This document shows, piece after piece, positions 4,331-48,878 of a DNA stretch of 64,000 nucleotides (position 1 is its first letter; each line of letters opens with the position of its first letter). A program made the translations under genes and the position numbers. Origin of the DNA: a virus; the IMG/VR virus record IMGVR_UViG_3300025137_000014, positions 1 to 64,000 of that record, one strand, 5' to 3'. Under the pieces are notes generated by a model. The model searched no databases, had not been told where the DNA came from, and worked only from the letters and a program-made list of their open reading frames with translations.

Positions 4331-4346
4331 ATAGCGAGGTATGAAA

Positions 4347-4820
4347 ATGATAATTCGAAATATATTCGTAGGGATCCTGCTACTTACTGTGTGGGGTTTA
4401 ATTATATCTGGTACGGTCTCAATGGCTAACGCACAGATGGTAGACAATGCACCTATGGATTTAAACCCAACAGAAAAACCAGATGTAGAGTTAACTCCTG
4501 ATGGTCCAGACACAGTTGAAGTTAAACTACTTTGTCGTTTTGTGGGTACATTAGAATTTGCAACGGCTATGTACATACTTCCAAAACTTGGACGTGCAAG
4601 TATCAAGCCATTAACAGACAAATATTCGGCACTACCTTGGGTACCAGTACATCTACAACCAAGCAATGACGGTACTGAATATCGTTTATGGTTACAGTTA
4701 GATGGTGGCTTTATGGTATTTGCAGTTAATAGGCAAACTCTAGCCTATTCAGTTTTACAATCAATCGATATGGGCGGCAGACAACTGTATACAGGCGGTG
4801 AATGTCAGATTGTAAAATAA
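4347..4820 (+). CDS. Exported protein, unknown function
   Basis: 157 residues from ATG 4347, which has GAGG seven bases upstream; ATG 4341 is too close to that site. The N-terminus is a clear signal peptide with a hydrophobic core and likely cleavage after SMANA (about residue 29). The mature part has an acidic Pro-rich linker (DLNPTEKPDVELTPDGPD) and then a beta-rich domain of about 100 residues. No lipobox. Probably periplasmic. Not recognised. Confidence 0.7.
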   Translation: MIIRNIFVGILLLTVWGLIISGTVSMANAQMVDNAPMDLNPTEKPDVELTPDGPDTVEVKLLCRFVGTLEFATAMYILPKLGRASIKPLTDKYSALPWVPVHLQPSNDGTEYRLWLQLDGGFMVFAVNRQTLAYSVLQSIDMGGRQLYTGGECQIVK

Positions 4821-4829
4821 ATATAGTAT

Positions 4830-5048
4830 ATGAAGATAATATACAATAATCAACTAATAGACGTAGACGAGTTAAGTGGAATAATGACCGAAGATGAACT
4901 TATACACTTAATAGAAGTATTTGGATTTCCTGGTTGGGCATCACCGGGTTTCTATCGTTGTGTAGAATTAGGTTTTATTGAAGAAGGTCTTGATGAATGG
5001 GATTACATTCATGCTTATATAGAACGTGACCCGGCTACTCTACATTAA
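4830..5048 (+). CDS. Small acidic protein, unknown function
   Basis: 72 residues, helical and acidic, with a GFPGWASPGF turn. The ribosome site is weak. The last 4 bases overlap the stop of the convergent SGNH gene, and the transcript probably ends at the terminator at 5104-5131 inside that gene. Not recognised. Confidence 0.65.
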   Translation: MKIIYNNQLIDVDELSGIMTEDELIHLIEVFGFPGWASPGFYRCVELGFIEEGLDEWDYIHAYIERDPATLH

Positions 5049-6049
5049 AAGTTACGTTGTAAAGTTTTAGCAAACCCACGATTAATCTCAGAACCCCAAT
5101 GCGGAGCCCAGAACTTTGGGTCTCTTTTTTTATAATTGCTGATATCTCTAGCACAACACTTGTTAATGTAAAACCATTTTGCTTTTTCAGTTAGACTATC
5201 AAAGTCTCCTGTAGTAAACCACTTATCGAATTGTGATTTAAAGTCTCCGGGTATTGTAACATTAGCTTTGTCAAATATAGAACCAGTACTTGGATTATAC
5301 ATATCACTCATAGATATCTCAGCAAGAGGTATTTTACGTTCTCTGCATATCAATTTGATTGCAACACGGTATTGATTAATTAAGTAGATGCTATGTGGGT
5401 TATCTAAGCATAGACTTTTACTTAACTTAGGATGAACTTCATTTAGTTTACGTGTAAACCATTCGCCCTCATAGTTAAAACTAATCTTATCTTCACTAAG
5501 TCTTAAATCATGTCTTAGCCATTTTTCCGCTTCATATGGCTCTCTAGTATCTCCGTAACGCCAGACAGATGTATGTCTAACAGTATTAGGCCACATAATT
5601 GCTATACCCTTACAAGTGTCATATGTATTTAAAAAATTTAAGATATTATTATATGTGGTAGTAATAGAACCACCTTCTGCACCATAATTTAAACATGGGA
5701 AACCTGTGTATGTCTTTAGAAAATAAGGCACAGTTTCTTCAACATGATTGCCTGCACCGAAAACGTGAGAACAACCAAACACTGCAACTGAACGTGCTAC
5801 ATTTTGTTGGTCAGTATCAATTTCTCTAAACCCTATATCATTATAGTAATACTCTATTGGCTTTTTGGATACATGATAAGTCCAACTTTCACCTATTGCA
5901 TCAGAACTTTCTAAGTGATTTGACTTTTCATAGTCATTCATATATTGTTTTGTAACTTTAAAATCACCATTTGCCATCCAATCTATTCCTAGATTTTGTA
6001 TTGTGATAGGATCATCAAAGTTTAAACCTATTTTAATTTCTCTGGGCAT
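5045..6049 (-). CDS. SGNH/GDSL-hydrolase-like protein
   Basis: 334 residues. About 90-100 residues in, a strand leads into FGCSHVFGAG, the block I nucleophile motif of SGNH hydrolases. Next come NYGAEGGSITTTYNN (block II-like glycine) and WPNTVRHT (block III-like Asn). Near the C-terminus is APHWGSEINRGFA, the expected position of the catalytic His. No signal peptide. SGNH enzymes typically add or remove acyl groups on sugars or lipids; the substrate here is unknown. It is paralogous to the next gene upstream and overlaps it by 17 bases. It could also be a non-catalytic structural relative. Confidence 0.6.
   Translation of the reverse strand: MPREIKIGLNFDDPITIQNLGIDWMANGDFKVTKQYMNDYEKSNHLESSDAIGESWTYHVSKKPIEYYYNDIGFREIDTDQQNVARSVAVFGCSHVFGAGNHVEETVPYFLKTYTGFPCLNYGAEGGSITTTYNNILNFLNTYDTCKGIAIMWPNTVRHTSVWRYGDTREPYEAEKWLRHDLRLSEDKISFNYEGEWFTRKLNEVHPKLSKSLCLDNPHSIYLINQYRVAIKLICRERKIPLAEISMSDMYNPSTGSIFDKANVTIPGDFKSQFDKWFTTGDFDSLTEKAKWFYINKCCARDISNYKKRDPKFWAPHWGSEINRGFAKTLQRNF
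5104..5131 (+). terminator. Terminator nested in the opposing gene
   Basis: GAGCCCA pairs with TGGG(T)CTC around a short loop and is followed by seven T on the plus strand. It lies 56 bases after the plus-strand stop, inside the C-terminal coding region of the convergent gene. Confidence 0.6.
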
Positions 6050-7301
6050 ATAATTCTAACCATTTTTTTATATAGATTTTATTAGTAACTTCACCCCAAT
6101 GTCCACCTTGAGGCCCGTTCTTATCTGTATAAGATACTACGTCCCTACATTTGACACGATTTATAATATACAACTGTTCTTTACTAAGAGTACCATCTGG
6201 ATTATTATAGTCTGACCACTTCTTATCATTACTTTCCATACAACCTAGTACTATATCCTTATATACTTCTGGTACACATTCACTTAAAACAAATGGGTTC
6301 TCAGGGTTAACATCCTCAGTCCACATCCAGGCTGGCCAGTCTGCACGTAACTCGTAAACTCTTTCATCGCCCATGATAGCATGAATGGTTTCTTGTGCAA
6401 GTGTTCGTCTATAATACATTTCAGGGTTTGGAAGAAAGTCGTGTTGGTGTACTAGTAAATGTTCCCACATTTTATTTGGACCAATATGGTCTCGGTAGTT
6501 TTTAGGTGTGCATTGTCCCGGCAACAAATCGGCTCTGTGCCAAACAGAATCAGAATACGAACCCTCTGCATCATATCCTTCTCGTTGATAACCTACGTTC
6601 TTTGTAAACCTATAAGGGTAAGTCCATAGAACAAATATACCTTTTGGTTTACCATATTTTCTACATAGATGAACAAAATTATGCATGATAGTATCATTGC
6701 CAGTTCCACCTACGGATAAATTAATTACTGGTGCATTTAATTTTACTGATAGATTTTCTCCCATCGTTTCATTCATATACTGACCTATGCCAAATGTATG
6801 TGAGCAACCTGTAATGACATAACTATTCTTCCAATCTACATCATCAAAGTCAGTATCACATCTAAATCCTTGTTTGTTAAGACGATATTCAATAGGTACA
6901 TTATAATATTTCCACTGTTCTCCGATATGCTTTTTCATGTTTTCAGTTTTATCATCTGAATCATGTCCCATGAATCCAGTAGTCCAATAAGGTTTGCCTT
7001 TAGAGAAATGTTGCGACCATTTTAAAGGAGTAGCAGGTACTCCTGAATGGGCATCAAATCCTGGATTGCTATTAGTCATGCCCATTGGATCATTCGACTT
7101 ATTAGGAAATATATATTCAGATGGATGTGTAGTATTAACAGAACTTCTCCACCCTAAATCAAACTGATCCATTGGGGTATCGTTAACACCGTCCCAATTA
7201 TTAATTCTCATATATTCCCATGGTAGTTTACCCTTCTTTTCGGTCCACTTATCTTTTTCTTTTTCTACTAACTGTTTTCTTTTTTTATAGAATTCTGACA
7301 T
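6033..7301 (-). CDS. SGNH/GDSL-hydrolase-like protein
   Basis: 422 residues. The N-terminal 150 residues are Trp- and Asp-rich and unlike known domains. The core has YVITGCSHTFGIG (nucleophile Ser), LSVGGTGNDTIMHN (block II) and a C-terminal GGHWGEVTNK (catalytic His candidate). It looks like a longer paralogue of the gene at 5045-6049, and both are read as a pair. The two-gene unit stands alone between plus-strand blocks and may use a weak late promoter at 7342-7349. A role in modifying a glycan made by the accessory clusters is inference. Confidence 0.6.
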   Translation of the reverse strand: MSEFYKKRKQLVEKEKDKWTEKKGKLPWEYMRINNWDGVNDTPMDQFDLGWRSSVNTTHPSEYIFPNKSNDPMGMTNSNPGFDAHSGVPATPLKWSQHFSKGKPYWTTGFMGHDSDDKTENMKKHIGEQWKYYNVPIEYRLNKQGFRCDTDFDDVDWKNSYVITGCSHTFGIGQYMNETMGENLSVKLNAPVINLSVGGTGNDTIMHNFVHLCRKYGKPKGIFVLWTYPYRFTKNVGYQREGYDAEGSYSDSVWHRADLLPGQCTPKNYRDHIGPNKMWEHLLVHQHDFLPNPEMYYRRTLAQETIHAIMGDERVYELRADWPAWMWTEDVNPENPFVLSECVPEVYKDIVLGCMESNDKKWSDYNNPDGTLSKEQLYIINRVKCRDVVSYTDKNGPQGGHWGEVTNKIYIKKWLELYAQRN

Positions 7302-8862: not shown

Positions 8863-9246
8863 ATGGACAAGTTACTAGTACACAAGCACCTGTTAATTCG
8901 TGCCGAGGTTAATAAGCCTCTACAAAACAAAAACAAAGCAATTAAGTATTTGCGAAAGATGATTAAAGCCATTGGTATGAAACCAATGTATGGACCCACT
9001 GCATCTTATTGTAAGATGGAAGGCAATAGAGGTCTAACTGCTTTTGCAATTATAGAAACATCACATATCGCTATGCATATATGGGACGAAGTAAGTCCTG
9101 CATTGTGTCAGTTAGATGTATATACTTGTTCTGAAATGGATCCTAATCAGGTTCTGCCTTTCTTAGAACTTATGGAACCTACTAAAGTAGAATATAAATT
9201 CTTAGATAGAGAAAGCAAGTTTGAAGAAATATACTCAAGTAAATAA
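8863..9246 (+). CDS. speD: S-adenosylmethionine decarboxylase
   Basis: 127 residues, the length of a bacterial class Ib AdoMet decarboxylase proenzyme. Residues 66-72 (TSHIAMH) hold the Ser that becomes the pyruvoyl group and the conserved His five residues later. DVYTC (85-89) holds the active-site Cys. The usual Glu just before the self-cleavage Ser is replaced by Thr, a small deviation. The enzyme makes decarboxylated AdoMet for spermidine synthesis. speD is known in other marine T4-like phages. It may shift host AdoMet and polyamine pools, which is notable beside five radical SAM genes. Start preceded by a weak ribosome site. Confidence 0.85.
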   Translation: MDKLLVHKHLLIRAEVNKPLQNKNKAIKYLRKMIKAIGMKPMYGPTASYCKMEGNRGLTAFAIIETSHIAMHIWDEVSPALCQLDVYTCSEMDPNQVLPFLELMEPTKVEYKFLDRESKFEEIYSSK

Positions 9247-9292
9247 TTCAAACGTATATAAGTTACTCAATCCCAAAAAGATAAGTATTAAT

Positions 9293-10084
9293 ATGAAAGA
9301 AGTAGTTTTAGTAACAGGTGGATTCGATCCATTACATTCAGGTCATATAGAATACTTCAAGTCTGCTAAAGCATTAGGCAATGAACTAGTGGTAGGCATA
9401 AACTCAGATGAATGGTTAACTCGTAAAAAAGGTAGAGCATTTATGAACTTTGCTGAACGCAAAGTAATTATTGAGGCACTAGAAGTAGTTGACAAGGTTA
9501 TTGACTTTGATGATAGTGACGATACAGCCAGTTACGCATTATACAAGATACAATCTATGTATCCAATTGGTACTAAGTTTATATTCGCAAATGGCGGAGA
9601 TAGAGGTAATACTACAACACCCGAATACAAACAATATGCAGAAATGCCATGGGTTAGATTTGAATTTGGTGTAGGTGGTACAAACAAAAGAAACTCTAGT
9701 AGTTGGATACTTGATGATTGGAAAACACAGAGAACTCATAGAACATGGGGATACTGGCGAGTACTTGATGATAAACAACCTAAGGTTGGGCAGAAGATAA
9801 AAGAACTAGTTATCAACCCACGCAAGAGTTTATCAAATCAGAAACATAGATATAGAAACGAATATTGGTATGTCTTAGAAGGAGATATCATGATTGAACT
9901 AGAATTTAACAATAAAAAAGAAGCAATCTATCTGCGTCCACATGATACATTCTTAATACCTAAGGAATGTTGGCATAAAACAACGAATATTGGTGATGAT
10001 CCAGCACATATTATTGAAGTACAATATGGTGAAAGTTGTGAAGAATCAGACATTTTAAGAAAAGAAAACACTCTAAAAACTTGA
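9293..10084 (+). CDS. Nucleotidyltransferase-cupin fusion, sugar-related
   Basis: 263 residues from ATG 9293; an upstream in-frame ATG at 9221 lies inside speD and is less likely. Residues 1-140 are a cytidylyltransferase-type Rossmann domain: GGFDPLHSGHIEYF (13-22 region) has the HxGH nucleotide-binding motif, and NKRNSSSWIL matches the C-terminal ISSS-like loop. Residues 152-250 are a cupin like the C-terminal domain of ManC/type II phosphomannose isomerase (RYRNEYWYVLEG, RPHDTFLIP, CWHKTTN). It probably activates a sugar or alditol phosphate and may isomerise a sugar. Its stop codon lies inside the next promoter's TTGACA. Confidence 0.8.
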   Translation: MKEVVLVTGGFDPLHSGHIEYFKSAKALGNELVVGINSDEWLTRKKGRAFMNFAERKVIIEALEVVDKVIDFDDSDDTASYALYKIQSMYPIGTKFIFANGGDRGNTTTPEYKQYAEMPWVRFEFGVGGTNKRNSSSWILDDWKTQRTHRTWGYWRVLDDKQPKVGQKIKELVINPRKSLSNQKHRYRNEYWYVLEGDIMIELEFNNKKEAIYLRPHDTFLIPKECWHKTTNIGDDPAHIIEVQYGESCEESDILRKENTLKT

Positions 10085-10108
10085 CAATATAGCGAATCGT
10101 GTTATAGT
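10081..10108 (+). promoter_or_regulatory. Early sigma70-like promoter with GANTC spacer
   Basis: TTGACA 10081-10086, a 16-base spacer CGAATCG-centred, extended TG before TATAGT 10103-10108. The -35 box contains the TGA stop of the upstream gene. Confidence 0.85.
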
Positions 10109-10139
10109 ATATACATAATCAACAACAGAGAGGTTAATT

Positions 10140-11720
10140 ATGAATACGAAAACACTAATAGCTACAGTATCAATGATTGTAGCACTGGCTACTTCATCGA
10201 ATGCGATGGATGAAAGTCAATTTAATCAAATGAAAAAGGACGGTATGATTACCACGTTTGGTAATTATATTTCTCCCGATAACAAAGTTGATACTGTGTG
10301 GGGTTCACATTATTATTTACCAAGTGATATGTTCGCAAAGAAAATAAAAGGTTCAATGGACGCAATATTTTGGTCAAATAGTCTTGCTTGGGGTAATTTC
10401 AATGGTGATGATACACCAGACTTAGTTATGGGTCATGAAATGAAAACTAGGTGTGAAGGTCTTGGTACAAAAGATACTCATACAGGTACTTGGTATTGTG
10501 AAGGTGAAACTCCTGATGATGTTTTGTCAATGCTACCATTTAGTATGTTTGAAGTATCTGACTCCATGAGAGAAAACCTAACTGACAATCTTATTGTCAC
10601 TGAAACAATGACAACTAGAAACTGTATTAGACCTCTAGTAGTAGATTTCAATAGTGATGGTATAGATGATTTGTTTTGTCCTAGTTCTACAGGTGGTAGA
10701 GATAAGAATGGTAAAGCATTCTTTGGTGGTGCCGACATGGTATTCATTTCAAATGGCAACGGTCAATGGGTTCAGACTAAAGAAAAAGGTGACATGGTAG
10801 GTAAGAACGGTTTCTACATGGGCTTTTCTCACGGTGCAACTGCGGCTGACATTGATAATGATGGTGACATAGATGTTATTACTCCTCATATACAATGGGA
10901 AAGCACTAAAGGTGGCGCAAAAATTTACTGTCATATAAATGATGGTAAAGGTAACTTCACTGTTAAGTGGTGTGCTGACCAATTTGCATTCTCAGTTACA
11001 ACTGGTGATTACAATGGTGACGGTAATGTTGACTTGATGGCGTCAGGTGGTTGGCATCAAAGCCCTGCTTACGCACATAACAATTCTAAAAAGCATCAGC
11101 AATCACCTATATTGTTTGGTGACGGTACAGGTAAATTTGGTAAGAATAAGAAATTAAAGTGGAAGTACTTAGAGCCTTCGTATGATATTTATGGTTCTAA
11201 TTTCTTGTTTACTTCTCTTATAGGTCCAGTATCATGGGACTTTGATAACGACGGTGATGTTGATATTGCCGGTACTTCAATAGGTCCTCTATACGTTGGT
11301 GGTACTCATACAGTATGGGCAAACGATGGTAAAGGTAACTTCACTGTTGCAGACCAAGTTCCATTAGAACAATCTCCAAAAGAGTTTTCTTCAAGAAAAG
11401 AATTCAAGAAGAAGATAGAAATGGAGACTAACCAATATAACTCGTACTGTGGTAGAAGTGTATTAATAGACTTGAATGAAGATGGACTTATGGATATCTT
11501 CTGTGATGGTCCTACACAAGACAAACATAACGGTTGGTTCTTTGTAAACCAAGGTAACTTAGAGTTTAAAAAAGTATCTCCTTACAAAGCATGGCAAGAA
11601 GGTTGGACCGATTACTACACTGGTGAATATGGTGGAGTAAACAAAAAGTTCGAAGGTTTCTTTGATGAAGACATGATGGGAGCAGGTGCTGGCTGGTGGA
11701 AGTATAAGTCAGACTTTTAA
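10140..11720 (+). CDS. Secreted FG-GAP/VCBS-type beta-propeller protein
   Basis: 526 residues. A signal peptide (residues 1-22, cleavage after SSNA) is followed by six DxDxDG-type calcium-loop repeats: NFNGDDTPDL near 86, DFNSDGIDDL near 169, DIDNDGDIDV near 237, DYNGDGNVDL near 290, DFDNDGDVDI near 367 and DLNEDGLMDI near 444. This is the FG-GAP/VCBS pattern of integrin-like propellers, which bind surfaces or polysaccharide. The early promoter and strong GAGAGG site suggest export during infection rather than a virion part. The role is unknown: surface blocking, glycan binding or exclusion of other phages are possible. Confidence 0.8.
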   Translation: MNTKTLIATVSMIVALATSSNAMDESQFNQMKKDGMITTFGNYISPDNKVDTVWGSHYYLPSDMFAKKIKGSMDAIFWSNSLAWGNFNGDDTPDLVMGHEMKTRCEGLGTKDTHTGTWYCEGETPDDVLSMLPFSMFEVSDSMRENLTDNLIVTETMTTRNCIRPLVVDFNSDGIDDLFCPSSTGGRDKNGKAFFGGADMVFISNGNGQWVQTKEKGDMVGKNGFYMGFSHGATAADIDNDGDIDVITPHIQWESTKGGAKIYCHINDGKGNFTVKWCADQFAFSVTTGDYNGDGNVDLMASGGWHQSPAYAHNNSKKHQQSPILFGDGTGKFGKNKKLKWKYLEPSYDIYGSNFLFTSLIGPVSWDFDNDGDVDIAGTSIGPLYVGGTHTVWANDGKGNFTVADQVPLEQSPKEFSSRKEFKKKIEMETNQYNSYCGRSVLIDLNEDGLMDIFCDGPTQDKHNGWFFVNQGNLEFKKVSPYKAWQEGWTDYYTGEYGGVNKKFEGFFDEDMMGAGAGWWKYKSDF

Positions 11721-11748: not shown

Positions 11749-11775
11749 AGCCCGGCTCAGTGTCGGGCTTTTTTT
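11749..11775 (+). terminator. Rho-independent terminator
   Basis: AGCCCG/CGGGCT stem (11749-11754, 11764-11769) with a 9-base loop and seven T. It closes the beta-propeller transcript. Confidence 0.85.
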
Positions 11776-11778
11776 ATA

Positions 11779-11812: not shown

Positions 11813-12199
11813 ATGAAAAGAATTATTAAACTAGACCCAGATATTAATCCAATAACAGTTAAAGACGGTAGAGGTATAATCAGTACTTACTATCCTCAAA
11901 CAACTGATATTAAAGAATGGAGTTATATAGTAACTCTCAAGGGTTCTGTACGTGGACATCACTTACATAAAGAGTTTGACGAATATATTATGTTCGTAGA
12001 GGGCAGTGGTGTATATACTGAACTAACTGATGGTAAAGAACTAGTTACTCCTGTAGCAACTGGTGATTGTATCTTCATCCCTAGGTTAACACCTCATACT
12101 TTTTATCCAACTTCTGATTCAAAAGCAATCGCTCTTATAACAAAGAAATGGGACGATTGTATTGAACCGCTGACAAGAGTTGACAATGAAGAAAAATAA
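11813..12199 (+). CDS. Cupin, sugar epimerase/isomerase-like
   Basis: 128 residues, one cupin domain. RGHHLHKEFDEYIMFVEGSG is the first cupin metal or substrate motif, and GDCIFIPRLTPHTF the second. The length and motif order fit small sugar-nucleotide cupins such as FdtA/WxcM-type ketoisomerases or dTDP-4-dehydrorhamnose epimerase relatives. The neighbouring C-methyltransferase and epimerase support an NDP-sugar substrate. It is the first gene of the late sugar operon and overlaps the next by 14 bases. Confidence 0.65.
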   Translation: MKRIIKLDPDINPITVKDGRGIISTYYPQTTDIKEWSYIVTLKGSVRGHHLHKEFDEYIMFVEGSGVYTELTDGKELVTPVATGDCIFIPRLTPHTFYPTSDSKAIALITKKWDDCIEPLTRVDNEEK

Positions 12200-13388
12200 A
12201 AAGATAATTAGAATGATTGACAATGAACGTACTGATTGTAGAGTATGTGGAAGCCCTGTAAAAAAAATAATTGACTTTGGTAGAATACATATCAATGATT
12301 TTCCTACAACACCTGATGATACACCTGGCGAAGCACCTATGGTACTAGACCAGTGTGAGAAATGTGAGTTAGTTCAGCTTAGACACACAGTTAATCCAAA
12401 AATATTATATGGTGAACACTATTGGTATGAGAGTGGATTAAATTCTAAACTTAAAGATAACTTATTTGATATTGCAAGTTATGTAAATGAACACACTGAT
12501 AAAGGTGATGTAGTATTAGACATTGGTGCTAATGATGGTACGTTGTTAAGTGCAGTTAACTCAGATAGATATAGAGTCGGGTGTGAACCAGCACCTAATC
12601 TAATTAAGAAGTTAGTGAAAAACTGTGAAGCAACTATAAACGATATGTGGCATTATAAACTAATGCAAGGTAAGAAAGCTAAAGTTATTACTGCTATTGG
12701 TATGTTTTATGATATGGATAATCCAAATGACTTTATCTACAGTGTCAATGAAGCATTAACAGATGATGGTATTTTTATTGCACAGTTAATGACACTTGCT
12801 CCAATGCTTAAAATGAAAGACTTGGGTAATGTATGTCATGAACATTTAGAATATTATAGCTATAAAAGTCTTGTAGAGTTATACGAAAGCAATGGTCTTG
12901 AAATTTATAAAGTAGTAGAGAACGATATACAAGGTGGTAGTTATCAACTATGGGCTAGAAAAAAGAATGAAGGCAGTATAGAATATCATGAAGATTTATC
13001 TTCTTTAGAAACTTTCTTTAAAGATGTAGAACGAAATGGTGCATTGCTAAGAAGTGTATTACAAGATTCAAAAGTAGCTGGCAAAAAGAATTATGTCTAT
13101 GGTGCTAGTACAAAAGGAAATACAATGTTACAGTTTTGGAAACTGCATGATTTATTTGAAGGTGCCGCAGAAATTCATCCAGATAAAGTAGGCAGATATA
13201 CAGTTGGCACAGGAATACCTATTGTACATGAAGATGATGCAAAGAAAGATGCAGACTTGTTCTTTGTTCCTAATTTTGGATTTAAAGATATGTTTGTTGA
13301 AAAAGAAAGTGAATGGATTGAACAAGGAGGTAGAATGCTCTTTGCAATGCCAGATGTAAACGTAGTAGAAAAGAAATGGACGAAGTAA
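12186..13388 (+). CDS. Sugar C-methyltransferase, class I SAM
   Basis: 400 residues from ATG 12186 (a TTG at 12180 is also in frame). The N-terminal zinc-binding pairs CRVCG (18-22) and CEKC (57-60) are typical of the NovU/TylCIII family. SAM motif I is VLDIGANDGT (110-119). CHEHLEYYS matches the HEH..Y motif of this family, and the C-terminal third is the Rossmann-like Methyltransf_14 part. These enzymes put a methyl on C3 or C5 of keto-deoxy-sugar nucleotides, giving branched sugars. The phage thus probably makes a branched-chain sugar. Confidence 0.85.
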   Translation: MKKNKKIIRMIDNERTDCRVCGSPVKKIIDFGRIHINDFPTTPDDTPGEAPMVLDQCEKCELVQLRHTVNPKILYGEHYWYESGLNSKLKDNLFDIASYVNEHTDKGDVVLDIGANDGTLLSAVNSDRYRVGCEPAPNLIKKLVKNCEATINDMWHYKLMQGKKAKVITAIGMFYDMDNPNDFIYSVNEALTDDGIFIAQLMTLAPMLKMKDLGNVCHEHLEYYSYKSLVELYESNGLEIYKVVENDIQGGSYQLWARKKNEGSIEYHEDLSSLETFFKDVERNGALLRSVLQDSKVAGKKNYVYGASTKGNTMLQFWKLHDLFEGAAEIHPDKVGRYTVGTGIPIVHEDDAKKDADLFFVPNFGFKDMFVEKESEWIEQGGRMLFAMPDVNVVEKKWTK

Positions 13389-16116: not shown

Positions 16117-17007
16117 CTACACCTGTTCATAATACCATTCATACGTTTTAGCGAATGCTTCTTCCATTGAAAATTTAGGAACCCAACCTAACTCTTTTAA
16201 ACGTGTATTGTCAATCGCTCTATTCTTAATTCCTTCAGGTCTATCAGTATTAAACCATAAGTTACCTTTGTATCCACTAACTTTAATTAGTAATTCAGCA
16301 ATCTCTCTAATAGATATCTCATACCCACTTGCTACGTTGACTGTATCGTATTTGTCATTATTTAAAATTATATCCATTCCTGAAACTGCATCTTCAATAT
16401 AAAGTATATCTCTGCTTTGATTTCCAGAACCCCATATCTCAATGCTATCTGTATTATTCTTACATGCATCTACAAACTTCTGCATCAACGCACCGATTAC
16501 ATGAGCATGTTCGCCTGTTCTGTCATGTGGTCCAAACATGTTTGTGTTTATCGCTGTACGCCAATTGGTATCATACTTTTCATTACTTGCTCTACACTGA
16601 TACATTCCCATTAGCTTAGGCAAAGCAGTTGGGAAATATGTAGCATAAGGTTCACCTTGAAGTAGTTGTGTTTCTTTATAAGGTTGATTTCCTATCTCAG
16701 GATAACTACACGTGCTTCCTTGTAATAATACTCTATCTGTTTTTGCAACATGACATGCTTCAAATATATTATTTTGAATTGTTAGGTTCTTAATCATTAA
16801 TTCAAAACTCTTATCTAGGTCTTCTTGCAGTCCACCGACAGTAGCGGCATTTATAACGACATGTGTATGTTTCAATTTGATATCTTGCTTAGTTGAGATA
16901 TTAGATGTGAAGTCTACATTCTGTGTATTGCCTCCTTCTGCATCTGGTATTAATTTCTTATACCATGTGCCTACAAGTCCTCTATCTCCTGCTATATAAT
17001 ATTTCAT
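16117..17007 (-). CDS. GDP-L-fucose synthase-like SDR
   Basis: 296 residues. GDRGLVG (7-13) is the nucleotide-binding loop, GSTCSYP (97-103) holds the Ser and Cys equivalents of GDP-fucose synthase, and FGPHDRTGEHAHVIGAL has the His and the substrate loop typical of WcaG. It should convert GDP-4-keto-6-deoxymannose to GDP-fucose or act on a similar sugar. Oddity: the catalytic YxxxK reads EPYATYFPTALPK, so Tyr121 and Lys131 are ten apart and the residue four before Lys is Thr127. It is last in the radical SAM operon and overlaps the 1295-residue gene by one base. Confidence 0.8.
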   Translation of the reverse strand: MKYYIAGDRGLVGTWYKKLIPDAEGGNTQNVDFTSNISTKQDIKLKHTHVVINAATVGGLQEDLDKSFELMIKNLTIQNNIFEACHVAKTDRVLLQGSTCSYPEIGNQPYKETQLLQGEPYATYFPTALPKLMGMYQCRASNEKYDTNWRTAINTNMFGPHDRTGEHAHVIGALMQKFVDACKNNTDSIEIWGSGNQSRDILYIEDAVSGMDIILNNDKYDTVNVASGYEISIREIAELLIKVSGYKGNLWFNTDRPEGIKNRAIDNTRLKELGWVPKFSMEEAFAKTYEWYYEQV

Positions 17008-20000
17008 TATTCTTTATCCTTATGTATTATAAAGTAATCATTCAATTCTGGAGTGGGACAATGTTTAGTTGACTTTGGTGTTTCGTGTCCTCTATGTGAA
17101 TTTTGCCAATGTGAGATATGTCCTACTTCTCCATCAAATCCTTCGAATGAAGAATACGCATATGGAAATGGTTGTATGACTGCGGAGCCACCTGGTTTTA
17201 ATTGTGTTAATATACAATCTACAAAGTGTTGTATGTCACTGCTTTCGAAAGGAGCAAAGAAAGTATTTCTATCTTTATTCTCATCAGTAATTTGCCAAGC
17301 CTGTGATATATTACCATTTACTAATCTAACAATCTTATCTGTTTTCCAAAATACATTTGACATATTCATAAGTATTATATCATATTTTTCATTAGGATCA
17401 AAGTCTTTTCCGTATGTGTGTTCTATATTATTAAGTAAATCAAAGTCTTTGCGTGGTTGTATATGTACATCTGCTGGTCTTACTATACCTAATGTATTCC
17501 AGACAAATTTAAGTTCATCTAACGAGTCGCCCGCTTCTTTATATGAGTTAGTAGAATATACATTAGTAAATCCTTCCTCTTTTAAAAAGTGTGGCATAAA
17601 ACCAAAATGTGTTCCTATATCTAAAATCTTAATATCTTTAGGTGCATAGTTTAAACCCAAGTTATCAAGTATCATAGAATGATTAACCCAATATGCAGAC
17701 TCTAAAGATGATTGCAAGTACTTAGAATGTTGAACAAGTTTTCTATTTAAAGATTTAAATTTTTTCTTATGTGTATCTTTAAATGTATCAAAGTAATTTT
17801 CAAACCTATAACCAATTCTACCAGTACTATATGGTTTTCTAAAACGCCAAGAACCAAATTCATTATAGTTTATAATATCCCAATGATAGTTATCATTAAC
17901 CCAATCTTTTTCTTCTTGAGTTAATTTACGTGGAGTATCAACTTTTTCTTCCTTTAATATTCTAGCAATATGTCTTGACGAATCTCTATGCCCAAACGTT
18001 CGGTGCCAATCCTTGCCTCGTTCATGATATCCTGTATTATGTATATCATCCATGTCTATCGTCCAAGCTACATTTAATCCATGTTGACTCGCACTTTGTT
18101 GTTGAAGTTCTTTCAAATCTTCTGGTTTATTAAAATCTTCACCCAGTATTTTACCTGTTGTCTCTAAAAATGATGCAAATCTTTTATGTGGATCTCTTGT
18201 AATTGCTATAGCAGGTATATCTTTTATGTTATCAAGATTTTTTTTATTAACTAATCTATAACCTAAATGAGGTGCTACTTTTTTAGCAACAGCTTTATCT
18301 AGTAATCCAACTGTAGGTATTATGATTGTGTTAGTATTCTCACTATACCAAACGTAGTTGTATATAGAATTGTGTGTCACATCGTCAAATTTGGCGTCCT
18401 CAAGCTGTGCTTTGTAGTCACCATTACTTAAAGATTCAAATGCACGTTTATATACTAATGGAGCATAAATATTTTTGTAATGATAGTAATTAAAATCAAG
18501 TACTTCTAGTAATGATTTATCATACTTCCATTCAGTACCATCTCTACGTAATTCAGTATAATCTACAATATTTTTAATTACTTTTGCTATCGCCTCTATA
18601 CGTTCAGCATAAGGCAATTCATCATATGATTCATCCCAATAGCCATCAAATGTTTTGAAGCCTAGATTTCTTAAGTTCTTAAGATAACCTTTATCGCCTA
18701 CAATAACGAATGGCTTTTTAGATAATATTGCTTGTGAAAGTTTTTCACTTATAGAAACATGCTCGTCACTAGATGTAAACTCTGTTATTAGTTCTAGGTA
18801 TGACCTTCTCCTATAAGGTAACATTTCTTCTAATCTATTTAAGGAAGACCCTGCTAACCATTCGTCCCGTGCATGTTGCATACTAAATGGTAATTCTTTT
18901 TTATAATACTCTCTAATAATTTCATCAGCTATGTCTTTGTTATATGAATAGCCGATACGTCCTTCAATAGACTGTATATCACTATCATATAACGGATCGC
19001 CTATACCGTAGTTATCTGTTCCTAAAAAACTATAGTAAGCATTATCTTTTATATTTGTATGATTTTCAATTAGCTTTGCTAATATATCAAGTCTATGGTT
19101 TCTAATTCTTTTATTAAGAAATAAGATATGTTTCTTAGAAATGTTAGCGATATCAAAGTTCCATTTTTCGTCATACTTATTTTCTATCTTGCCCTGTTCA
19201 TAGTCTGCAAAACGTAAGGTACTTGTTGATACAGTTAAGAATTCAACATCGCCTTCTACTTTTGTATCTTCAAACATTGTCCAGTATTTTACATTTTTAA
19301 CATTTTTCTTTTTAGAATAGAACTTGTTTATTTTTTCATAATAAGATATTGGTATAAGTTCTGCACCCATATCAAATATAATACATGCTTTTCCTTCTTC
19401 TAATTCTTTATTAATAGTTTTGTCTTTAATAGTTTTATCAATTAATTTATCAGTCAATGTAAGATAATCATATCCATCAAATTCGTCTTCACCAAAATGT
19501 TCCCATGCAATTAATGGAGATATAAAATAATACTTTTCAAATCTAACATCATCATGTATTTCGTCTATAAAGTTTTGATACATATCATAATGCTGAGGTT
19601 CTGCGTGTATCGTTTGTATTCTAGGCGAACGGTTAATCATCCATTTATTATAAAACATTCGGGGCATTATCTTTTCGGTCTTTCTCATACTTTGCATAGT
19701 AGCATTAAATTCTGTATTAGTTTCTTTTCCACAAAAGATTGAACATGTACGCAATCTTTTATTGTTAACGTTATTGTCTTTCCAATTATCAGGCCAGTGT
19801 TTCTGAAACATTGGGCCATTAATTATGTCTTCTAATTTAGTGTGTTCTAAACTTATTTTATCTCTACCAAAATCATTAATAAATTCTTGTAGCTGAGTTG
19901 TTTCTTCATCAGGGAAAGCGTATAGTTTACTTGCAGTCATACAACACGGAAATACTAATCCTTCACTAGTAACAAAAATACTTTTTGGTTTAATAACTAT

Positions 20001-20894
20001 GCAATCAATTTTAGTTTTACCCATCTTGACTTCGTGCGGAGTAAGTGGTCTATCTTTATCCCATTCATATTTATGGGTATAGGCTTCTTTACCAGAAGTT
20101 TTTGATTTAGTAAAATGTATTTCTTGTAAAATCTTTTCAGGATTGTCAGTATCATCTCCTTCAACTTTTTTAAAAGATGAGTTTGCAATATAAGTATTAA
20201 TCAATTCATTAGTATTACCATCAGACGGTGGATGTATATCGTAATCTTTTAATCCACGTTCATTAAATACTGCTAGTGTCGGTTGTGCTTTTCCTTCGTC
20301 ATTATTAACAAATCCTAATGCTTTTTTAGAATAGAACTCATGTATACCAATTTCTTTCGCTAACTGCTTTGCTTCTTCTACTTGGTGTTGATTATGTTTG
20401 AATACTAAGAACTCCCATCTGGCATGTCCACCACCTTTGATATAATTTTTCATAGCAGACATAATCTTAGACCAGTGTGTTCCTCGTCTATAAATCCAAT
20501 TAGTATTTTCTAGTCCGTCTACACTAAAAGTCATATGACCATTGGTGCCTATTATCTTGCCTAGTTCTTGCCAAAACTTTGGATTACGGCCACTGGCATT
20601 TGAATTCATAGTAATTTTAATATTTGGATTTATAGATTTTAGATATTTTAGAATATCAATAAGTTCTGGGTTAGTCATAGCATCACCATAATTTCCACAC
20701 AGTGACATTCCAAATAATTGTGCTAAAAATTTCTTATCGAAATACTTTTTGAATTGCTCTAACTTTACATAAGTTTCTTTGTATCTTGGATTCTTTCGAC
20801 CGCCCTGTTCTCTGCGATTACATACAGGACATAATGCATTACAAAGACTACTACTTTCGAAATCTAAATGTAATATCTCATCATGAGTGTACAT
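17007..20894 (-). CDS. Four-domain radical SAM/GT/sulfotransferase/methyltransferase fusion
   Basis: 1295 residues. 1-395: radical SAM domain with CNALCPVC (18-25), supplying Cys 18, 22 and 25, and C-terminal auxiliary-cluster cysteines (FPCCMT near 317-318; C384 and C388). About 580-790: a region with SEKLSQAILSKKPFVIVGDK and GFKTFDGYWDESYDE, a pattern of phage glycosyltransferase-like proteins. About 850-1010: sulfotransferase-like, with AITRDPHKRFASF (896-908) as the 3'-phosphate site. About 1068-1245: class I methyltransferase with ILDIGTHFG (1090-1098). Overlaps both neighbours by one base. Assembly of one modified product on one polypeptide is inference. Confidence 0.75.
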   Translation of the reverse strand: MYTHDEILHLDFESSSLCNALCPVCNRREQGGRKNPRYKETYVKLEQFKKYFDKKFLAQLFGMSLCGNYGDAMTNPELIDILKYLKSINPNIKITMNSNASGRNPKFWQELGKIIGTNGHMTFSVDGLENTNWIYRRGTHWSKIMSAMKNYIKGGGHARWEFLVFKHNQHQVEEAKQLAKEIGIHEFYSKKALGFVNNDEGKAQPTLAVFNERGLKDYDIHPPSDGNTNELINTYIANSSFKKVEGDDTDNPEKILQEIHFTKSKTSGKEAYTHKYEWDKDRPLTPHEVKMGKTKIDCIVIKPKSIFVTSEGLVFPCCMTASKLYAFPDEETTQLQEFINDFGRDKISLEHTKLEDIINGPMFQKHWPDNWKDNNVNNKRLRTCSIFCGKETNTEFNATMQSMRKTEKIMPRMFYNKWMINRSPRIQTIHAEPQHYDMYQNFIDEIHDDVRFEKYYFISPLIAWEHFGEDEFDGYDYLTLTDKLIDKTIKDKTINKELEEGKACIIFDMGAELIPISYYEKINKFYSKKKNVKNVKYWTMFEDTKVEGDVEFLTVSTSTLRFADYEQGKIENKYDEKWNFDIANISKKHILFLNKRIRNHRLDILAKLIENHTNIKDNAYYSFLGTDNYGIGDPLYDSDIQSIEGRIGYSYNKDIADEIIREYYKKELPFSMQHARDEWLAGSSLNRLEEMLPYRRRSYLELITEFTSSDEHVSISEKLSQAILSKKPFVIVGDKGYLKNLRNLGFKTFDGYWDESYDELPYAERIEAIAKVIKNIVDYTELRRDGTEWKYDKSLLEVLDFNYYHYKNIYAPLVYKRAFESLSNGDYKAQLEDAKFDDVTHNSIYNYVWYSENTNTIIIPTVGLLDKAVAKKVAPHLGYRLVNKKNLDNIKDIPAIAITRDPHKRFASFLETTGKILGEDFNKPEDLKELQQQSASQHGLNVAWTIDMDDIHNTGYHERGKDWHRTFGHRDSSRHIARILKEEKVDTPRKLTQEEKDWVNDNYHWDIINYNEFGSWRFRKPYSTGRIGYRFENYFDTFKDTHKKKFKSLNRKLVQHSKYLQSSLESAYWVNHSMILDNLGLNYAPKDIKILDIGTHFGFMPHFLKEEGFTNVYSTNSYKEAGDSLDELKFVWNTLGIVRPADVHIQPRKDFDLLNNIEHTYGKDFDPNEKYDIILMNMSNVFWKTDKIVRLVNGNISQAWQITDENKDRNTFFAPFESSDIQHFVDCILTQLKPGGSAVIQPFPYAYSSFEGFDGEVGHISHWQNSHRGHETPKSTKHCPTPELNDYFIIHKDKE

Positions 20895-22090
20895 TAAAAG
20901 TGTCCTTCGAATTCAGGTAAAAAGTCTAGTATGTTTTGTTTTCTAATCTCATCAAGATTTCTAGTATATTCTTTTGCTTTTTCCCATTTTTCTTTTCGGT
21001 CTGGCCCACCAAACATTTTTTTAAATTCTTGCATCTTCCATTCATCAAATACATTAGAAAACTTATTATGTATTGCATCACGCATTGCTTTAGGTAATAC
21101 TGCCGGAGATAATATATCAGGATCATATACGTAATTGTGGTGTACCCAAACACCATGTTCTCTATGGAAGTAATTATAAAAATCACCTAGTGTACTATAA
21201 TTCATCCAAGACACAGTTTGTGTTACATCAATCTCAAACCCTTCATTCTTTAATCTTAAGAAATTCTTTTCAACATCATTCCACTTTGTAGGATATCGAA
21301 TATAATGATTCCTATCACCTAAGTCATCAATACTACAACTTACTTTGACATGGTCAAACTTTCTCCATAAGTCTATAACTTTATCGTTCATATTAGTCAT
21401 GTTGATATTATACCAGAGTTTTATATCTGTTTTTCCTAAGTCAACAAGTCTCTCTAAGAATTTAAAATGTTCTTTAATTAATGTAGGTTCTCCGCCGTTG
21501 ATGTAAAATGTTTTTACTTTATCACAGTGTTGTAGCAAGTCATCCCAAAATCCCTCACGCTCAGGCCATCTAAAGCCTTCCATGGTATCATATGTTGTAA
21601 GTTTAAATGTAGTTTTCTTCTGTAGTGCATCATAATCATTACGCCATTTACTTGAACTTGCTGGATTGCAAGTACGACATGCAACATTACAAACATTACC
21701 TAATCTTAATTCAACAAACTCTAGTTGAACGTCTTTCATAAAGCCATCGCTATCAGTGGCGTCCCTAGCGACTTCTACAGTGTACTCAGGATAGTTTTTA
21801 ATTTCTTCTGTTCTTTTAGAAGCCATGCCTTTTGCTTCTTCTGAATAGCAACGCATACATGCTATAGGCTTTTTGCCGTCTAATACTTCTAGTCTTGCTT
21901 TTTTATAGCTTTCACTATTCATAGTATCAAACACAGTGTCACGATTAAGATTATAAAATCTATCACCATCACGTGAACTACTCAATGAATTGCGGTGGTC
22001 TGCAACACAACAATGTGTTACACCTCCATGCGGATGCGTGGCAAGATGTTGAAATAATAATGGGCAAAAAGTTTCGCTCACGATAACCAT
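20894..22090 (-). CDS. Radical SAM protein with N-terminal twitch-type cysteines
   Basis: 398 residues. Auxiliary cluster cysteines come first: C9, C27-C28, C78 and C81 (CMRC). The radical SAM motif CNVACRTC gives C134, C138 and C141, and INGGEP (198-202 region) binds the SAM amino group. This N-terminal-twitch arrangement is known in marine phages and bacteria but, as far as I know, without a proven reaction. Twitch or SPASM enzymes usually oxidise or crosslink peptides or sugars. Overlaps the 1295-residue gene by one base and the SGNH gene by 13. Confidence 0.85.
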   Translation of the reverse strand: MVIVSETFCPLLFQHLATHPHGGVTHCCVADHRNSLSSSRDGDRFYNLNRDTVFDTMNSESYKKARLEVLDGKKPIACMRCYSEEAKGMASKRTEEIKNYPEYTVEVARDATDSDGFMKDVQLEFVELRLGNVCNVACRTCNPASSSKWRNDYDALQKKTTFKLTTYDTMEGFRWPEREGFWDDLLQHCDKVKTFYINGGEPTLIKEHFKFLERLVDLGKTDIKLWYNINMTNMNDKVIDLWRKFDHVKVSCSIDDLGDRNHYIRYPTKWNDVEKNFLRLKNEGFEIDVTQTVSWMNYSTLGDFYNYFHREHGVWVHHNYVYDPDILSPAVLPKAMRDAIHNKFSNVFDEWKMQEFKKMFGGPDRKEKWEKAKEYTRNLDEIRKQNILDFLPEFEGHF

Positions 22091-22944
22091 CCTAGTTCTT
22101 TTAATTTTGTTTTTAGTATTTTGTTTGTGAATGCATAATACCCTGCTTGTGTACTATGACCATCTGGTGCTACGCCGTGTCCGCTGTTAACTGAATAATC
22201 TAGTATGCCTGTATCTATGTAATCAATATTAACTTTACTCAACGCTTGTTTTAATTTTGGTAATACTGATGGGTCAAAATTAAATGCATCTTCCCAACCA
22301 AATAATATTAGTAATTTATTATTAAAAGACTTGATTGCAGATAGTGTAGACAATATTACATGAAGTCTATATGGATCTGGTTCTGCGCCTTTGCCATGAA
22401 GTGAATATATATTTCTTGTTTGTGATAATGTTTTCTTACTTATATCGAACATGCCTGTACACGAAGGGTCAAACCCGTATATTTTCTTTTCAGTGAAGTG
22501 TTCATCTTCGATAACTTGAAAACATCCCCAATCTTTAACCTCATCTTTTTTATATGCACGTGCAAGTTCATTACCATAGAAATGAGAAGATTGTTGATTT
22601 ATAGGTATAGTAACCCTACCAGGGTTTGTTATCTGAAAAATTACTAAATCATCAGCATCAATCTTATCAGTTAGCATCAAGTTAGACCAAATAGCTATTT
22701 GAGAATCAAGCCCTGCTCCACTCATCGCATAGCTTTCCATATGTATATCATCAGAAGACCACTCGCATGGATTAAAATTATTGACTGCATTAATTCCTAT
22801 TTCTTTTGCAAGTCTCCAATCATCTTCTAAATCATTACGAAATGAAGTTTCTTCGCATTGGTCATTTAGCCAAAGCCAATGATGTTGTGCAGTGTGACTA
22901 CAACCAAATGCTCTAATTTTTATTTTGTCTTGTCCACCACTCAT
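22078..22944 (-). CDS. SGNH/GDSL-hydrolase-like protein
   Basis: 288 residues. IRAFGCSHT near the N-terminus is the SGNH nucleophile block, SGAGLDS the block II glycine, FQITNP the block III Asn, and GVAPDGHSTQAGY the C-terminal Asp-x-x-His pair. All four blocks can be seen, so catalysis (acyl transfer or esterase) is plausible. Its place between radical SAM genes, overlapping them by 32 and 13 bases, suggests it acts on the same product. No signal peptide. Confidence 0.7.
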   Translation of the reverse strand: MSGGQDKIKIRAFGCSHTAQHHWLWLNDQCEETSFRNDLEDDWRLAKEIGINAVNNFNPCEWSSDDIHMESYAMSGAGLDSQIAIWSNLMLTDKIDADDLVIFQITNPGRVTIPINQQSSHFYGNELARAYKKDEVKDWGCFQVIEDEHFTEKKIYGFDPSCTGMFDISKKTLSQTRNIYSLHGKGAEPDPYRLHVILSTLSAIKSFNNKLLILFGWEDAFNFDPSVLPKLKQALSKVNIDYIDTGILDYSVNSGHGVAPDGHSTQAGYYAFTNKILKTKLKELGWLS

Positions 22945-24313
22945 ATAATTCTGGATCCCTTTTATAGATATCTTCTAATCTAAATTGTTCTTGTCTGATT
23001 CGGTCTAATTCTTCTTGATAGTTTCTACCATTAAAAAATTGTTCTTCATGTGTCTCAGGCCATTGTTCTTCAAACGTTTGTCTATCCTTCATACCCTTCA
23101 ACGTATTTACTAGAGTTTGTTGCTTATGAGTAGCCTTTGGCTCAATATAAGCTAATAATTCATCTAAGTGTCTAGTTAATATATGCTTGGGCCATGCAAA
23201 CGGACTAAACACAATATCAGCATGAAAGGCAAACATAATCTTTGTTTCTATTCTTACATCTAATTCTAAACTCAAATCAAATAAATCTTTAATACTAAAC
23301 ATACCAGGACCAGTGATAGTCAAGTCAAATAACATTTTGTCTTTACCACCTGGTGCCGCTAGTCCTTTCTTAAAATTAGCTAACCACTCATCCCATACAA
23401 TGCCTTTACGAATAAACTCTACAATGTCACCTGTACCATCGATACTTGCACACATTAACCAGTCTTTAAACTGAGGTAGATAATCAAATAACTCCATGCC
23501 TTTAAACGTTGTACGAGATAAATTAGAGTTGTATCTTAAGTGACAATTCTTTGCAGAACCATTAGCGACCATTTCTTTTAATGCCCACCAATGTATATCG
23601 TACATAAGTGGCTCTCCACCTACCCAATATATTTCTTCTACTATACCATCACTAATTGCTTTCTTGAATTCTGGTTCAACAACTGTACGCTGAAACTTTA
23701 CCATCTTTTGTTTTACAGTTGGTTGCATAAATGGTTGATGTTCAATCGACCACATGTTGTGCTTTTTCTTTTCTGCTTCCCATGAACTTGATAATTGTTC
23801 ACCACACATACGACACTTGAAGTTACATAGATTAGAATAACGATAGTCAAATGATATTGTAGGCATTGATGTATGCCCATCATCATCTGTCTTATCAAAT
23901 GCTTCTTGTATCTTGTCTCTAAATAAAACTCCTGTAAACCATTTACGATATGAACTTAACGAGAGAATGTCATCATTACAAACATCACATTGTGGTATAC
24001 GTTCTCCTGACATTAGTTTCTTTCTAATATCTTTCATGTAAGGAGAGTTCCAATGTTCTGTTAATGATGAAGGGTTAAAGTCATCTGCATCTGTTTTAGA
24101 ATCTGTTACTTCGCCATATCTTTCATCGTTAGATGCATCAATATATTGTTTCTGAAATGAATGTTCTTCACGTGATGCACAACAAAGTCTACGCTCGCCT
24201 TGAGGAGATATATAGGTATGCGACCATGGCGCCATACAGAAAGTTTTGTTTTCACTTTCTTCTGCACAACTTCCGTCGCTTTTCCAAATAGGTATTATCT
24301 TTTTAGTTGTCAT
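22913..24313 (-). CDS. Radical SAM protein with N-terminal twitch-type cysteines
   Basis: 466 residues. N-terminal auxiliary cysteines: C26 in FCMAPWSH, C44-C45, then C109 and C112 (CDVC). Radical SAM CNFKCRMC gives C163, C167 and C170, followed by WVGGEPL (231-236). Same architecture as the gene at 20894 with a CC pair, so the two form one subgroup distinct from the HPP subgroup at 25049 and 26586. Overlaps the sulfotransferase-like gene by 11 bases. Substrate unknown. Confidence 0.85.
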   Translation of the reverse strand: MTTKKIIPIWKSDGSCAEESENKTFCMAPWSHTYISPQGERRLCCASREEHSFQKQYIDASNDERYGEVTDSKTDADDFNPSSLTEHWNSPYMKDIRKKLMSGERIPQCDVCNDDILSLSSYRKWFTGVLFRDKIQEAFDKTDDDGHTSMPTISFDYRYSNLCNFKCRMCGEQLSSSWEAEKKKHNMWSIEHQPFMQPTVKQKMVKFQRTVVEPEFKKAISDGIVEEIYWVGGEPLMYDIHWWALKEMVANGSAKNCHLRYNSNLSRTTFKGMELFDYLPQFKDWLMCASIDGTGDIVEFIRKGIVWDEWLANFKKGLAAPGGKDKMLFDLTITGPGMFSIKDLFDLSLELDVRIETKIMFAFHADIVFSPFAWPKHILTRHLDELLAYIEPKATHKQQTLVNTLKGMKDRQTFEEQWPETHEEQFFNGRNYQEELDRIRQEQFRLEDIYKRDPELYEWWTRQNKN

Positions 24314-25052
24314 CTAGTACTAAGACTCCGGTTTTACTATCGTACTGACGTTTACACAGTATAGATTCTTTAATTCTATCCTCGACTTCTGAGTAGTTTG
24401 TTATCAGATTTATTTTTTCTTCTTTTGATAATTGTTTTATAAGTCCTCTAGGATCATTATCGATATCAATAAGTTCATGTAATGTTTCATAAGGATAAAA
24501 ATGACAGTCATACTTAGACTTCATTTCTTCAACTGTTCTTGTATATGCTTGATATGATAAATCAAATATTTTAATAAGATGATTTACATGTTCTTTGGTC
24601 GCAGTAAAAGGTTCATATGATGCTTTTTCACGATTAGCAACAACCCAATTACCTGATTTCTGTGCGATAAGGAAGCTACATACTGTATCTAATATATCAT
24701 TTCTAAAACTAAAATGTAAATCAGTTACTTGCAGTCCTTGAAAAAATCTATGCACTTCCATAAAATTAAACTTATATAATCTTTCTGGATTATTTTCTTT
24801 ACTAGTTAATTTCATATTCTGTCGTAATCCACACATGATATGATATTTCATACACCATTCTTGTTCAGGATGTGTTACATTAATGTGTCTTAATTTTTTA
24901 AAATACATCATATATTCATCGTCATGTATTTCTGTCGATGGCAAGTCATGTTCATAAAATTCAAATGGCGGAGTGCATACGTTTGCCGCTATATGATTAC
25001 TGACAATCGTACTTCCGCTTCTTGCATTGTAGACTACTAAATGTCTCCTCAT
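24303..25052 (-). CDS. Sulfotransferase-like protein
   Basis: 249 residues. The N-terminal strand HLVVYNARSGSTIVSN is the 5'-phosphosulfate P-loop of sulfotransferases (RSGST), and HFSFRNDILDTVCSF near 114-127 matches the 3'-phosphate motif (RxDxxDxxxS). The size fits a minimal PAPS-dependent domain. It would move sulfate to a hydroxyl or amine of a glycan or small molecule. Together with the sulfotransferase-like part of the 1295-residue protein, it suggests a sulfated product. Overlaps both neighbours. Confidence 0.7.
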   Translation of the reverse strand: MRRHLVVYNARSGSTIVSNHIAANVCTPPFEFYEHDLPSTEIHDDEYMMYFKKLRHINVTHPEQEWCMKYHIMCGLRQNMKLTSKENNPERLYKFNFMEVHRFFQGLQVTDLHFSFRNDILDTVCSFLIAQKSGNWVVANREKASYEPFTATKEHVNHLIKIFDLSYQAYTRTVEEMKSKYDCHFYPYETLHELIDIDNDPRGLIKQLSKEEKINLITNYSEVEDRIKESILCKRQYDSKTGVLVLDDN

Positions 25053-48819: not shown

Positions 48820-48827
48820 TCCAAAAC

Positions 48828-48855
48828 TTGACAAACTAGCGATTCGTGTTATAGT
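48828..48855 (+). promoter_or_regulatory. Early sigma70-like promoter with GANTC spacer
   Basis: TTGACA 48828-48833, a 16-base spacer, TATAGT 48850-48855. The spacer reads CGATTCG where its close relatives read CGAATCG, so the change falls exactly on the N of GANTC. Confidence 0.85.
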
Positions 48856-48878
48856 AATATCTTAATAAGGATATTACC

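Follow-up and report, generated by a model that had tools for sequence, protein, structure and literature searches.

A predicted exported FG-GAP beta-propeller, probably host derived and exchanged in place between subtypes at a fixed locus of a jumbo-phage clade

We analyzed a stretch of 64,000 nucleotides (the window), which covers the first part of a virus record 187,122 bases long (IMGVR_UViG_3300025137_000014), and found at one locus an FG-GAP beta-propeller gene with its own expression signals, flanked on both sides by nucleotide-sugar genes. The features of this locus, and of a possible partner elsewhere in the window, are as follows.

8863-9246, plus strand: S-adenosylmethionine (SAM) decarboxylase, upstream flank, 72 to 98% identical within the clade
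9221-10084, plus strand: cytidylyltransferase-cupin fusion, upstream flank, intact in three of five other lineages
10077-10110, plus strand: promoter, identical to the 34-bp consensus of a family found throughout the phage genome, AAACTTGACAANNTAGCGAATCGTGTTATANTAT, with -35 TTGACA at 10081-10086 and hexamer TATAGT at 10103-10108
10127-10133, plus strand: ribosome-binding site AGAGAGG, as read from the sequence
10140-11720, plus strand: FG-GAP beta-propeller ORF, 526 aa, with an exact reading frame, a Pfam match, and a predicted model
10140-10205, plus strand: predicted Sec-type signal peptide, MNTKTLIATVSMIVALATSSNA, with the predicted cut after A22
10206-11717, plus strand: mature beta-propeller, the portion exchanged among phage lineages
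10395-10421, plus strand: calcium loop 1, NFNGDDTPD, the poorest match to the consensus among the loops
10644-10670, plus strand: calcium loop 2, DFNSDGIDD
10848-10874, plus strand: calcium loop 3, DIDNDGDID
10929-10973, plus strand: putative disulfide Cys264-Cys278, present in 39 of 39 homologs
11007-11033, plus strand: calcium loop 4, DYNGDGNVD
11238-11264, plus strand: calcium loop 5, DFDNDGDVD
11469-11495, plus strand: calcium loop 6, DLNEDGLMD
11749-11777, plus strand: intrinsic terminator, an 8-pair stem-loop at 11749-11769 with a T run after it
11813-12199, plus strand: WxcM/FdtA-like cupin, downstream flank
12180-13388, plus strand: sugar C-methyltransferase (Methyltransf_13/14), downstream flank
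48824-49856, plus strand: possible partner of the same promoter group, a promoter copy with 2 mismatches, placed ahead of a polysaccharide-lyase-like protein that bears a signal peptide

The ORF matched PF13517 (FG-GAP_3) with 79.9 bits (E = 2.1e-22; Pfam cut-off, 26.9) and PF01839 (FG-GAP) with 44.4 bits (cut-off, 22.1), and its six calcium loops begin at residues 86, 169, 237, 290, 367, and 444. Positions 1, 3, 5, and 9 of each of the six loops were occupied by D, N, S, or E in all 39 homologs collected. These results confirmed the first-pass annotation of an FG-GAP propeller with six calcium-loop repeats, and the 526-aa protein is very probably one that folds with calcium.

An AlphaFold2 model of the mature part, predicted from nine sequences (cellular homologs from the genome scans excluded), reached a pLDDT of 72 and a pTM of 0.80; an earlier six-sequence model, with a pLDDT of 56, was excluded from the fold searches. 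Foldseek against the PDB, a check that the first-pass annotation had proposed, returned CRTAC1 as the best match (E = 4e-9), followed by integrin alpha chains, rhamnogalacturonan lyases (YesW/YesX, PL11), and phytase. Structural re-alignment yielded many propellers at Z scores of 18 to 21, including Photorhabdus PLL lectins, and the best viral structural match was a 481-residue protein with 20% identity. Together, the sequence families and the model supported the proposed integrin-like beta-propeller fold, although a ligand is not thereby established. While the protein has calcium-loop repeats and a propeller model in common with FG-GAP/integrin-alpha propellers (PF13517, PF01839; CRTAC1, integrin alphaV, YesW), it is only about 12% identical to the solved FG-GAP structures and differs from them as a single-domain, bacterial-type secreted protein with putative disulfides of its own.

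Signal peptides were judged by sequence pattern using a simple rule, which was passed by 10 of 211 phage ORFs, and each of the six distinct slot homologs from phages was predicted to have a signal peptide. The leader of the window protein, which is followed by MDE, has a Lys-containing n-region, a hydrophobic core, and an S-N-A cleavage site. Cysteines varied in pairs: among the 39 homologs, Cys437 and Cys455 were both present in 20 and both absent in 19, with no mixed case, and Cys162 and Cys180 were both present in 5 and both absent in 33, with one mixed case, the Cys105/Cys120 pair being uninformative. The cysteine count was even in all six slot phage proteins and in most of the cellular ones. 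Such paired gain and loss supports an oxidizing, exported location, and there is strong reason to think that the propeller takes the Sec route out of the cytoplasm and forms disulfides on folding. In addition, the L121 homolog carries a PG_binding_1 domain after its leader (28.9 bits; cut-off, 23), which no scanned cellular copy showed, and the FG-GAP protein of L281, a phage more distantly related, has an LTAC lipobox and is likewise encoded among nucleotide-sugar genes. Since the leader, the cysteine pairs, the PG_binding_1 domain (in one homolog), and the lipobox (in another) point the same way when taken together, the exported propeller is probably retained in the host envelope. These features, as well as the position of the gene outside the structural module and behind its own host-type promoter, lend good support to the first-pass claim that the protein would be exported rather than packaged. 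Nor did it resemble a virion protein by family match or gene position, as the 526-aa protein had no match in PHROGs and its gene lies, with its own promoter, among sugar-metabolism genes.

The promoter of the propeller gene reads TTGACA-16-TATAGT, a sigma-70-type arrangement with an extended -10 element (TGn; TGT-TATAGT). Copies of this family with no more than 8 mismatches were found at 377, 3507, 7764, 10077, 48824, 49841, and 50259 of the window and at 114910 and 116420 of the record; the 34-bp consensus thus occurs about 9 to 10 times in the 187-kb genome, versus 0 to 3 matches in a control first-order Markov sequence of equal length at the loosest limit (no more than 10 mismatches). The spacer of the family is conserved (TAGCGAATCGTG), and the copies precede small, mostly single genes. 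We regard this family as a candidate early regulon of the phage clade. The promoter was kept 5' of all six phage homologs, across subtypes and despite their differing ORFs; the ribosome-binding motif precedes the start in the phage homologs too, and the terminator was kept in position in the relatives where it was read, with stems that are altered yet still pair. By sequence, the propeller gene is a separate transcription unit, in agreement with the first-pass claim of a promoter and a terminator of its own, and its strong host-type promoter suggests early expression. The ORF behind the promoter copy at 48824 (48879-49856, plus strand) is a leader-bearing homolog of PF14099 (Polysacc_lyase; 56.2 bits; cut-off, 29.9). 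By eye, comparable leader-bearing proteins were also noticed in L126 (446-1438) and L127 (1165-2157), on the upstream side of the slot.

The phage is related to the jumbo phages PA5oct, Phosso, and Atu_ph07. A protein annotated as ssDNA-binding in several such records is 57% identical to that of PA5oct over about 77% of its length, and the same protein has hundreds of relatives among viral contigs. G003 (IMG/VR 3300020469_003050; 342,607 bp) holds orthologs for 202 ORFs of the window record, with a median identity of 91%, and the full genome may extend beyond the 187-kb record. Several other gene groups of the clade were also recorded. A cluster of radical-SAM-type proteins at 17007-28154 (minus strand) includes several that are 81 to 97% identical clade-wide and are among the best-conserved genes read, and a repeated family of about 330 to 420 aa with the appearance of SGNH hydrolases (5045-7301, minus strand; also in L126, L127, and L125) varies in number and sequence between phages, with 26 to 44% identity outside G003. 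A small leader-bearing protein at 4341-4820 (plus strand), for which no Pfam match was found, is present in all relatives and evolves fast (74% down to 28% identity). At 174463-177037 of the record (L007:10463-13037), TctC-like (with a signal peptide) and TctA-like ORFs were identified by reading and are 97 to 99% identical in G003.

Direct searches for phage homologs of the propeller came back empty because FG-GAP repeats yield poor search peptides: tblastn against 50,697 phage records and 72,556 plasmids yielded no relative, and protein searches with nonrepeat peptides, which miss homologs, returned nothing from viral contigs or genome contigs. The phage homologs were therefore located by searching with the conserved neighbor genes, which revealed five further phage lineages with a homolog at the same locus, downstream of the SAM decarboxylase; these homologs are few and their records partial. 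Identity to the window protein was 72% for L093, 59 to 61% for L121, about 35 to 38% for L127, 30 to 34% for L126, and 29 to 32% for L125. The adjoining cytidylyltransferase-cupin fusion is reduced to its cupin part in L125 and missing from L126. The slot was absent from other phages with a SAM decarboxylase, the first scan, with a two-sequence alignment, returned known relatives only, and scans with the L125 and L127 proteins gave self-matches only.

A scan of bacterial genomes uncovered a strong homolog in the alphaproteobacterial MAG AH-326-B08. In the order of this MAG, which comprises marine Alphaproteobacteria with genomes mostly of 1.0 to 1.6 Mb, 54 of 162 genomes (many of them incomplete) matched the propeller, mostly strongly, and in a class-wide sample of 385 genomes the strong matches were confined to three members of the order and one genome whose order was unstated. 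The neighbors of the cellular copies, named from reading their translations, were rho and mnmE in one context, an M16-type peptidase and a methyltransferase-like gene in another, and an rseP-like protease with a Cys/Met-metabolism enzyme in a further one. Because they are flanked by housekeeping genes, the cellular homologs are chromosomal rather than prophage borne. They share with the phage copies the six loops and leader-like N-termini at 52 to 84% identity, and differ in their chromosomal location and, in some, by C-terminal extensions (L201, 669 aa). In each of four genomes, MAGs or similar (G120, G063, G127, and G041), at least two FG-GAP subtypes occupy separate chromosomal sites, and the cellular family therefore has paralogs. 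Other phage proteins gave little in the same order: the TctC-like protein had no match, the SAM decarboxylase had relatives in 10 of the 162 genomes, at only about 50% identity, and the polysaccharide-lyase-like protein reached only 24 to 35% identity. We consider this order a candidate host link for the uncultured marine jumbo-phage clade.

The six phage slot proteins fall into four subtypes, and the nearest nonphage relative of each subtype is chromosomal and belongs to this one order. Identity to that relative was 52% for the window protein (L324-type), 64% for L127 (L334-type), 74% for L126 (L332-type), and 84% for L125 (L327-type). When 39 proteins were placed in a maximum-likelihood tree, no fewer than five switches of the phage label were needed on branches with good support, the distant L281 accounting for one, and none of the bootstrap trees united the phages. 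Constraining the six phage proteins together cost 1202 log-likelihood units (AU test, P = 5e-7). Thus, a single phage origin for the slot proteins was rejected. The window, L093, and L121 copies form one clade, inside the window's own subtype.

The flanks of the slot behave differently from its content. Across subtypes, the phage propellers are about 30 to 40% identical, versus 70 to 98% for most flanking genes; likewise, most genes at 20.9 to 31 kb are 73 to 97% identical in all five relatives, whereas the propeller is 30 to 35% identical to those of L125 to L127. The simplest reading of related phages with conserved neighbors but a divergent propeller is repeated replacement in a fixed slot, and the comparison of the six lineages shows a mature propeller that has evidently been swapped in place several times between subtypes, with the promoter, leader, and terminator kept by the slot.

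The same contrast was seen within a subtype. Between the window and L093, the propellers are 72% identical at the protein level (dS, 0.83; dN, 0.21), versus 94 to 97% for the adjacent flanks (dS, 0.16 to 0.52; dN, 0.01 to 0.05), and the propellers diverge least at the leader end. Positive selection was considered for this divergence and rejected in favor of an exchange of divergent alleles, since the high dN is accompanied by a raised dS. The rate by itself is unexceptional, with the propeller being one of 25 of 202 genes at or below 72% identity. A leader swap, in which a phage leader was joined to a host mature part, is a weak conjecture, and low leader identity between phage and cellular proteins proves little because leaders vary among the cellular copies too. 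As for direction, it is the chromosomal context of the cellular copies, and not the weakly supported nesting within subtypes, that points to transfer from cell to phage. Phage-to-cell dS values range from 0.9 to over 2, so the transfers are old or their donors unsampled.

We propose that the propeller is a host-derived moron held in a fixed slot, which stays in the envelope and masks or alters a receptor, and put this reading as a whole at somewhat under one half (about 0.45). An exported FG-GAP gene that is chromosomal in small-genome marine Alphaproteobacteria would have been acquired by the jumbo-phage slot and expressed from the strong host-type promoter family, which would also serve the secreted polysaccharide-lyase-like protein. 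The product would be exported by Sec, fold with disulfides and calcium, and be retained in the host envelope, where, as a relative of the host's own propeller, it may occupy the binding partner or surface site of that protein; a shared partner or site is suggested because the phages carry different host-type subtypes and not one generic version. An envelope receptor would thereby be masked or altered, so that other phages are excluded and re-adsorption of progeny is stopped. Receptor masking, or superinfection exclusion, is the likeliest benefit, yet the least certain part of the scheme. The coating of the host cell and blocking of competing phages envisaged in the first-pass annotation is compatible with it; export and the propeller fold stood up from that annotation's overall interpretation, whereas host derivation and in-place exchange lay beyond its reach. 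A more specific form, in which a dedicated "host-mimic slot" copies the propeller subtype of the infected host, so that the phage protein impersonates the envelope propeller and alters who else adsorbs, is put forward as a speculation that we think improbable as it stands.

Somewhat less probable still, though a serious rival, is replenishment of the kind known from the photosystem genes of cyanophages, whereby the phage copy would cover an envelope task that the cell needs done, for example capturing substrates or maintaining the wall, when host expression is shut off during infection. The phage copies are full length, with all calcium loops intact and up to 84% identity to host proteins, and the phage has other metabolic genes (the TctC/TctA-like ORFs and the SAM decarboxylase), as this explanation would have it. 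However, a match in about one-third of the order genomes (many incomplete) argues against a generally essential job, repeated subtype change is easier to explain with a varying partner, and the peptidoglycan-binding domain gained by one phage version was absent from the cellular copies that were scanned.

We rate lower again, but likewise as a serious rival, the view that the propeller is a secreted glycan-active lectin or lyase accessory, which would remodel the host surface polysaccharide for release together with the co-regulated lyase-like protein. The shared promoter family before the signal-peptide-bearing Polysacc_lyase homolog at 48879, the structural matches to YesW/YesX, PL11, and PLL-type lectins, and the nucleotide-sugar genes on both sides of the slot are in its favor, but propeller fold matches are unspecific and the PL11 likeness is at the fold level only, no catalytic residues were identified in the propeller, and a generic glycan binder needs no swapping between host subtypes. 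A virion-associated decoration or adhesion protein with an incidentally hydrophobic N terminus is very improbable, for although propellers or lectin-like folds occur in the tail and fiber proteins of other phages and the divergence is near that of the large tail-region proteins (72% versus 74 to 76% to G003), it is opposed by the leaders in all phage homologs, the co-varying cysteines, the chromosomal housekeeping surroundings of the cellular homologs, and the gene's standing alone as a unit, apart from the structural genes, under a promoter family of small, mostly single genes.

The preferred reading, that of a host-derived envelope moron, has partial parallels. Auxiliary metabolic genes such as cyanophage psbA are host homologs that phages acquire and exchange at a stable locus; the propeller is likewise exchanged at a stable locus but is no metabolic enzyme, and whole subtypes are replaced while the expression signals stay. 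The Llp protein of T5 is a surface or periplasmic superinfection-exclusion protein of a phage. Exclusion has been shown for two proteins of temperate phages, the Ltp lipoprotein of Streptococcus thermophilus phages (PMC3952083) and SieA of P22 (PMC10883804). All three are phage-encoded envelope proteins, as the slot protein appears to be from its predicted envelope location, and the slot gene is also its own transcription unit. They differ from it in that their exclusion has been demonstrated, whereas the slot protein is a host-derived propeller known here from its sequence. Our literature search found no paper on phage FG-GAP proteins of the exported, slot-held kind. As host-derived phage morons are already known, the in-place exchange of exported propeller subtypes is a variant of them.

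Host genes in phages are usually those of metabolic enzymes, and here four cellular subtypes of an exported envelope protein are found at one locus. The preserved expression signals and the exchange of subtypes suggest that selection favors a fit to some subtype-specific feature of the host surface, and this pattern of replacement lends the locus more interest than an isolated secreted propeller would have. Study of the locus could help to reveal what an exported protein family of streamlined marine bacteria does, and the propeller is a directly testable candidate for a marine superinfection-exclusion protein.
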